Source: Candidatus Woesearchaeota archaeon (lineage in GTDB: Archaea > Nanobdellota > Nanobdellia > SCGC-AAA011-G17 > ARS1403). From it: a stretch of 64,000 nucleotides of DNA. Position 1 is the stretch's first letter; the number at the start of each line of letters is the position of its first letter. The position numbers and the translations under genes were made by a program. The notes beneath the pieces were generated by a model, which worked only from the letters and a program-made list of their open reading frames with translations, searched no databases and had not been told where the DNA came from. This document shows positions 23,975 through 24,814 of the stretch, piece by piece. The DNA lies in contig JACPIN010000002.1 of NCBI GenBank assembly GCA_016188065.1, positions 1-64,000 on the forward strand, written 5' to 3'.

Positions 23975-24814
23975 ATGTCATATGAAGTGAAATTGAGAAA
24001 TAATAGTGAATATAGTTCTGATAAGTTATACAGAAATGAACTTAAAAAATCAATACCCGTATCAAAAGAAGAGGAGGTTGAGCTTTCTGCGAGAATTAAA
24101 AATGGAGACAAAAGAGCACTGGATAAATTTGTCAGGTGTAATCTAAGATTCGTTGTTAACGTAGCGAGGGAATATGAAAATCGTGGATTAAATTTCGGTG
24201 AATTGATCTCAGCAGGAAATGTAGGCCTTATAGAAGCTGCAAAAAAGTTTGACGGAAAAATGGGTTTTAGGTTTACCACTTATGCTGTCAGATGGATAAG
24301 GCAGTCAATAATCAGGGATTTAAGAACAATTGTCAGCATCTCTCATATTCCAGATAACCATTACGATAAGATCAGCAAGCTAACAAGGCTAGCAAAAGAG
24401 CAAGGCAAATCAATAGAAGATACACTAGAGGGGGAAAATGGGGAAGGCTTAATAGTAGATAGCGATGTCTTAAGGGCATACAGGCCTGCGATGTCTTTAG
24501 ATTATGCTATTGACGATGATGGGGATAGTCTTAGCGAAACAACTGCAAGCCCTTATACATTACAGGATCAGCAATTCGAAAAAAATGAGCTAATATCTAA
24601 TGTGAAAAAAGTGTTATCAACTTTGGATAAGAGGGAGATGATCATTGTGAAAAAATATTTTGGTCTGGATGGAGAAGAGCCAGAAATATTAGAGAAGATT
24701 GGAAAGCCCCTAGGCATAACAAAAGAAAGGACAAGGCAGATAAGGGATAAAGCGCTGAAAAAATTAAGGCATCCTTCAAAAGCCCAATATTTGGAACCAT
24801 ACTATAGTAGTTAA
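23975..24814 (+). CDS. Bacterial-type sigma-70 family RNA polymerase sigma factor
   Basis: LRFVVNVAREYENRGLNFGELISAGNVGLIEAAKKFDGKMGFRFTTYAVRWIRQSI (region 2), LGITKERTRQIRDKALKKLR (region 4). Confidence 0.95.
   Translation: MSYEVKLRNNSEYSSDKLYRNELKKSIPVSKEEEVELSARIKNGDKRALDKFVRCNLRFVVNVAREYENRGLNFGELISAGNVGLIEAAKKFDGKMGFRFTTYAVRWIRQSIIRDLRTIVSISHIPDNHYDKISKLTRLAKEQGKSIEDTLEGENGEGLIVDSDVLRAYRPAMSLDYAIDDDGDSLSETTASPYTLQDQQFEKNELISNVKKVLSTLDKREMIIVKKYFGLDGEEPEILEKIGKPLGITKERTRQIRDKALKKLRHPSKAQYLEPYYSS

Follow-up and report, generated by a model that had tools for sequence, protein, structure and literature searches.

Why should an archaeon carry a bacterial-type sigma-70 factor, and on which RNA polymerase (RNAP) would such a protein act? 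Transcription initiation relies on unrelated factors in the two domains. Reviews of archaeal transcription describe TBP, TFB and TFE only (PMC7289017). The question is raised by P0001, a sigma-70 family protein encoded in the window analysed here, a stretch of 64,000 bases (bases 1-64000 of the 76,577-base contig C9) from a metagenome-assembled genome of 881 kb in 26 contigs, 91% complete. Our data reveal a sigma-70 protein whose gene resides in the archaeal chromosome behind promoters of archaeal type, and whose contact residues are conserved across its relatives. As to its role we favour, with a probability of about 0.4, a laterally acquired and archaeally expressed sigma that may direct the archaeon's own polymerase to a very small number of promoters.

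A sigma-70 protein among archaeal transcription genes

The open reading frame (ORF) of P0001 runs uninterrupted from ATG to stop and encodes 279 amino acids (aa). Regions 2 and 4 are clear: the protein matches Sigma70_r2 (PF04542) with 59.1 bits (cut-off 24, E=3.8e-16) and Sigma70_r4 (PF04545) with 41.3 bits (cut-off 24.1, E=1.1e-10). Region 1.2 reaches 19.4 bits against a Pfam cut-off of 22, and region 3 has no Pfam match, yet is alignable to SigA/RpoD chains; residues 17-276 align with solved SigA/RpoD chains at E=3e-43. An earlier note on this DNA had called the protein full-length, with regions 1.2, 2, 3 and 4 recognisable, which holds for the span from 1.2 to 4, with 1.2 and 3 weak; region 1.1 is absent. 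Both motifs that it named are present: the region 4 helix-turn-helix (HTH), in which E585, R588 and Q589 (E. coli numbering) are kept and R584 is K, and VRWIRQSI, in which the -10 WW dyad has R instead of its first Trp (W433), a position held by W in 34/34 bacterial comparison sequences.

With 3389 homologues at E<=1e-3, the resemblance of P0001 to sigma-70 is not due to chance. The best NCBIfam models are RpoS (169.7 bits, equivalog cut-off 378.7) and RpoD (161.3 bits, cut-off 555), and P0001, a member of the sigma-70 family, is by these scores neither an RpoD nor an RpoS equivalog. In the AlphaFold2 model (mean pLDDT 73.8) domains 2 and 4 are well predicted and the middle poorly. A fold search matched the model to sigma chains of initiation complexes with E down to 1.9e-13, and the 50 PDB matches listed, of 177 with E<=0.001, are all sigma or RNAP entries. 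The TM-scores against sigma chains are low (~0.4), probably because the domain arrangement of P0001 is not fixed. Pfam, chain alignment, fold matches and the archaeal locus together bear out the description of P0001 as a sigma-70 of bacterial type that is encoded by an archaeon.

The archaeal RNAP genes for H, B'', B', A' and A'' lie, as had been noted before, on the same contig, 9-17 kb from the sigma gene; the nearest relatives of A' are metagenome proteins, followed by Nanoarchaeota and Woesearchaeota. Searches with A' and B' (tblastn and phmmer) found no second or bacterial RNAP hidden in the genome, and the cut-off for bacterial rpoC was reached in 0/22 sigma-bearing genomes. The genome encodes one TFB (contig C7), one TBP (C22) and three sigma-70 genes, on three contigs (C9, C13 and C7).

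Such genes are common in the phylum: 179/401 genomes drawn from it hold sigma-70 homologues, 148 of them above the cut-off. Many sigma-bearing genomes have 2 to 8 copies, and some are assemblies of 1 to 3 contigs; within the order, proteins like P0001 occur in 30/106 genomes. The phylogeny that the earlier note had proposed, here a quick maximum-likelihood tree of 97 rows with SH-aLRT support only, groups the archaeal sigmas with two bacterial kinds, namely the sigma-70 of E. coli and Bacillota and the short RpoD of Latescibacterota/Gemmatimonadota type. P0001 itself stands in a small group with two metagenome proteins (61% and 48%) and an archaeal protein from genome G260 (support 97). End branches are about 0.5-3 for archaeal against 0.01-0.6 for bacterial sequences. 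The sigmas of the phylum stem from at least two bacterial sources, evolve fast and show much turnover. A metagenome scan for closer relatives of P0001 was swamped by bacterial RpoD near 40%. In three loci (L191 in G208, L153 in G141, L190 in G157) sigma-70 domains stand at or near the end of archaeal proteins of up to 1741 aa, the N-terminal parts of which match no Pfam family; one of the three carries an HTH at its C-terminus.

Contact residues, clamp and promoters

In E. coli sigma-70 the clamp of the polymerase is contacted by L384, V387, A391, D403 and N409, the -10 element by Y430, W434 and Q437, and the -35 element by R584, E585, R588 and Q589. Contact residues of all three kinds are kept in about 76-95% of 63 archaeal sigmas: for the clamp A391 in 60/63, V387 in 56/63, D or E at 403 in 62/63 and N409 in 53/63; for the -10 element Y430 in 57/63, W434 in 48/63 and Q437 in 50/63; for the -35 element E585 in 54/63, R588 in 55/63 and Q589 in 51/63. 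W433, also of the -10 set, is kept in 44/63. Regions 2.2, 2.3 and 4.2 are best conserved and regions 3.0-3.2 variable. P0001 keeps most contacts, with the changes W433 to R, R451 to H, D403 to E and R584 to K. On the polymerase side, sigma is bound by R275, E295 and A302 of bacterial beta'; the matching positions of A', in a coiled-coil alignment made by eye, are I238, L258 and H265, invariant in 120/120 related A' proteins, a set in which the presence of a sigma is not known for each member.

The promoters of the genome are archaeal. An element consisting of a TFB recognition element (BRE) and a TATA box, with its start near -37 relative to the start codon, precedes 61% of 463 operon-first genes (expectation-maximisation estimate), a position that indicates leaderless transcription. 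The sigma genes on C13 and C7 are each preceded by a BRE/TATA of their own, at -37 and -40. That of the window has none, and lies 23 nt behind the gene of a 75-aa protein with one transmembrane (TM) segment, which does have one; the two genes likely share one transcript, and the element probably also drives the sigma gene.

A search for -10/-35-like pairs, recommended by the earlier note, came out negative both here and in sigma-rich relatives. Sigma-type pairs are not enriched upstream of the 463 genes nor of 112 TATA-less genes, TTGACA/TATAAT, Bacteroidota-type and FliA-type pairs show no upstream excess over dinucleotide shuffles, and no -35/-10 spacer among 8 to 30 nt is favoured. We also counted TTGACA-N17-TATAAT with at most one mismatch over whole genomes, with a 26-nt spacer or the reversed pattern as controls. 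This genome has 22 sites (18 of them inside genes) against 18 with the 26-nt spacer; 13 sigma-rich archaeal relatives have 305 against 298, and 242 for the reversed pattern, and 10 sigma-free relatives 207 against 221. Three bacterial genomes gave 217, 194 and 115 sites against 68, 38 and 18 for the reversed pattern, a 3-6-fold excess, so the count works, although it would miss a factor whose targets are few or whose motif is unusual. A large sigma regulon is rejected by the lack of a pair excess and of a preferred spacer and by the intragenic position of most near-consensus sites: at the level of promoter statistics, P0001 is not a global factor.

Possible roles of the sigma factor

According to the reading that we favour, the gene of P0001 would have been taken from a bacterium, with the short RpoD/SigA of Latescibacterota/Gemmatimonadota type as the nearest candidate, and would have entered the archaeal chromosome as a single gene, by gain rather than loss. 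The TBP/TFB system would transcribe it, probably by way of the TATA box that precedes the 75-aa gene. The protein is presumably made and able to bind an RNAP, and would serve as an extra specificity factor inside the archaeal cell: domain 2 may bind the coiled coil in the clamp of the archaeon's RNAP, where it would recognise and melt a -10-like element, with domain 4 reading a -35-like one. Its targets would be a handful of promoters beside standard TBP/TFB ones, or promoters unlike those tested. We prefer this reading because the contact residues are constrained despite long branches, because a single RNAP is available in the cell, because sigma has been widely and repeatedly retained in the phylum, and because sigma genes sit behind archaeal BRE/TATA promoters. 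Several observations weigh against it: P0001 lacks W433 and R451, the 120 A' proteins show no sigma-specific clamp change despite the frequency of sigma in the phylum, sigma-type pairs are enriched neither upstream of genes here nor in the sigma-rich relatives, and the sigma gene is missing from the identical site in a genome of the same genus (G001, below).

The earlier note had left the function unsettled between the archaeal RNAP, a phage or host polymerase and a bacterial partner, and that caution holds. Action on the cell's own RNAP at many promoters is now unlikely, and at few it stays in play, as does a bacterial partner. For a viral role there are only two weak relatives (33% and 29%) from one viral-contig scan, on which basis a viral origin of P0001 was also rejected.

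On the one hand, P0001 might act on a bacterial RNAP outside the archaeal cell, released or delivered to a neighbour or host whose polymerase it would redirect or titrate. The residues for a bacterial clamp and for -10/-35 DNA are kept in an archaeon that has no bacterial RNAP, an unmodified clamp and no sigma-type promoter class, and fast evolution with gene turnover would fit changing partners. We nevertheless consider this doubtful: inspection of the 279 aa by eye, with no predictor run, revealed neither a signal peptide nor a TM segment, the route of delivery is hypothetical, and the sigma residues that are conserved also contribute to the fold. To our knowledge, moreover, the hosts of cultured DPANN are archaea. 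The wider claim, that the sigmas of these archaea generally act across domains on the RNAP of a bacterial partner, because contacts are kept where the archaeon has no such polymerase or promoters, seems to us somewhat less probable still.

On the other hand, P0001 might regulate without initiating, either by competing with TFB/TFE on the clamp or by binding DNA through region 4 only. The loss of W433 and R451 and the absence of a region 3 recognisable to Pfam would agree with this, as would a relative in G141 with an HTH_31/HTH_3 match at its C-terminus (E=2e-4, below the cut-off); otherwise, domain fusions of archaeal sigmas gave HTH-like domains only and no informative partner. Such a role is about as doubtful as delivery to a bacterium, since other archaeal sigmas keep the -10 set, W433 and W434 included, and regions 2.2 and 2.3 are best conserved together with 4.2.

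A third alternative is a transient acquisition without function, in which bacterial genes enter, persist briefly and vanish. The locus itself bears on it. In the same-genus G001 the order Fic, FlaI-like (62%), 75-aa TM (96%), 145-aa (32%) and Kae1 (85%) is that of the window, with 134 bp in place of the sigma gene; in G006 and G003 the 75-aa protein lies near Kae1, and sigma is likewise absent there. Conversely, the sigma of G001 sits between two genes that are adjacent, without a sigma, on contig C1 of the present genome. The empty site and this reverse case indicate that sigma genes are gained and lost singly, at varying sites, and that of the window is a single-gene gain or loss. Different sigmas at different places in the genomes of one family are what transient entry would produce. 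It is opposed by the contact residues kept on long branches, by archaeal TATA boxes, by native hexamer use (the window's sigma gene lies at the 73rd percentile of this genome's genes in a model trained on its long ORFs) and by neighbourhoods kept between genera: in G000, G003 and G004 sigma lies near S10, in G012 and G042 next to glutaredoxin/Lgt-like genes, and in G265 and G268 next to an Elp3-like gene, these neighbours being named from reading the sequences rather than by family search. We hold transience to be unlikely, a little more so than the two roles above. An assembly or binning artefact joining bacterial DNA to an archaeal contig, the chimera against which the earlier note had warned and to which a 26-contig source might lend itself, can be dismissed, given the order kept on both sides of the empty site in G001 and in part in G006 and G003, the ordinary GC (64th percentile), GC at third codon positions (53rd) and coding score of the gene, the two further sigmas on archaeal contigs, and the sigma genes of relatives in genomes of 1 to 3 contigs.

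A candidate remnant of sigma in the G001 gap of 134 bp, with 13/14 bases, lies within chance expectation, and we make no claim for it. The 75-aa TM protein was discarded as a dedicated anti-sigma, being 84-96% conserved in three relatives without sigma at that place; a general anti-sigma role is unlikely, though G001 and G003 do carry other sigmas elsewhere. In another family (L209 in G037, 6574-8162) a short divergent sigma gene adjoins Kae1 and points towards it, an arrangement that resembles the one in the window and could reflect either shared ancestry or a hot spot.

Nearby, a Fic-domain protein (21288-22292) has its own strong TATA element and a 69% counterpart in G001, and a stand-alone LAGLIDADG protein (26329-27501), resembling the intein part of RtcB and replaced by a different gene in G001, is likely a homing-type element. 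Farther away lies a diversity-generating retroelement (10400-13933) with a reverse transcriptase at 12824-13933 and a template repeat at about 12696-12800. Two related ORFs (10400-11161 and 11163-11915) carry its variable repeats at their ends; over 71 bases of the second, every one of the 16 mismatches to the template coincides with an adenine of the template (11 A>G, 5 A>T). Two adjacent nucleotidyltransferase-HEPN gene pairs of MNT-HEPN type (14004-15286 and 16449-17751) are likely toxin-antitoxin or defence modules.

Table 1. Positions of the sigma-70 genes, their neighbours and the archaeal RNAP genes (window coordinates unless a contig is given)
Feature	Position	Strand	Remarks
FlaI/secretion-ATPase-like N-terminal fragment	22751..23677	+	syntenic in G001, G003, G006
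BRE/TATA element AATAAACTTTATAAAA	23687..23702	+	10.1 bits; belongs to 75-aa gene
75-aa one-TM protein	23724..23951	+	directly upstream of sigma gene, 23-nt gap
Sigma-70 family protein P0001, 279 aa	23975..24814	+	regions 1.2, 2, 3, 4; without region 1.1
BRE/TATA element AGAAACATTTAAAAAT	24818..24833	+	12.8 bits; belongs to gene after sigma
145-aa protein	24854..25291	+	right-hand insertion boundary
Kae1/TsaD, archaeal type	25309..26229	-	syntenic anchor
Archaeal RNAP genes H, B'', B', A', A''	34116..41398	+	sole RNAP found in genome
Second sigma-70 gene	C13:18860-19726		directly behind ribosomal protein S10 and EF-1alpha
Third sigma-70 gene, divergent, 454 aa	C7:63327-64691		'FliA-like' by reading of sequence

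Relation to known systems

Our tests sharpen the functional question into a conflict: the contacts are kept, yet a matching polymerase is absent and no promoter class to go with them is visible. If the sigma works with the archaeal RNAP, two initiation systems would exist in one cell and be comparable on one polymerase; if it works on the polymerase of another organism, this would be a new kind of cross-domain interaction.

MzaA, the sigma-like protein of the MZA anti-phage system, is matched by P0001 in its sigma-70 C-terminal part (169.6 bits). However, P0001 remains far under the 800-bit cut-off of that model and lacks the N-terminal part, and no other parts of an MZA system were seen among the neighbours scanned. 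The short primary sigmas (RpoD/SigA) of Latescibacterota, Gemmatimonadota and bacteria like them are closer: like P0001 they have about 276-295 aa, no region 1.1 and 'ELxSAGNVGL' in region 2.2, and identity is 38-43% over most of the length. P0001 differs from them in having R for W433 and H for R451, in its diverged region 3 and in a genome without a bacterial core RNAP.

Sigma factors in archaea were reportedly described already by Rinke et al. in 2013. That the class is not new, as the earlier note had stated, is documented by Castelle et al. (2021, PMC8204110, fam00359), who found sigma-70 genes in DPANN, prevalent in Woesearchaeota, ruled out mis-binning, and reported no anti-sigma factors and an unclear mechanism of control. 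P0001 resembles those proteins as a sigma-70 in a Woesearchaeota-type genome with TBP and TFB, but belongs to a small separate clade with relatives of 61% and 48% only. To their account our study adds the absence of the sigma promoters tested, the turnover of the genes, their archaeal promoters and the conservation of the contact residues.
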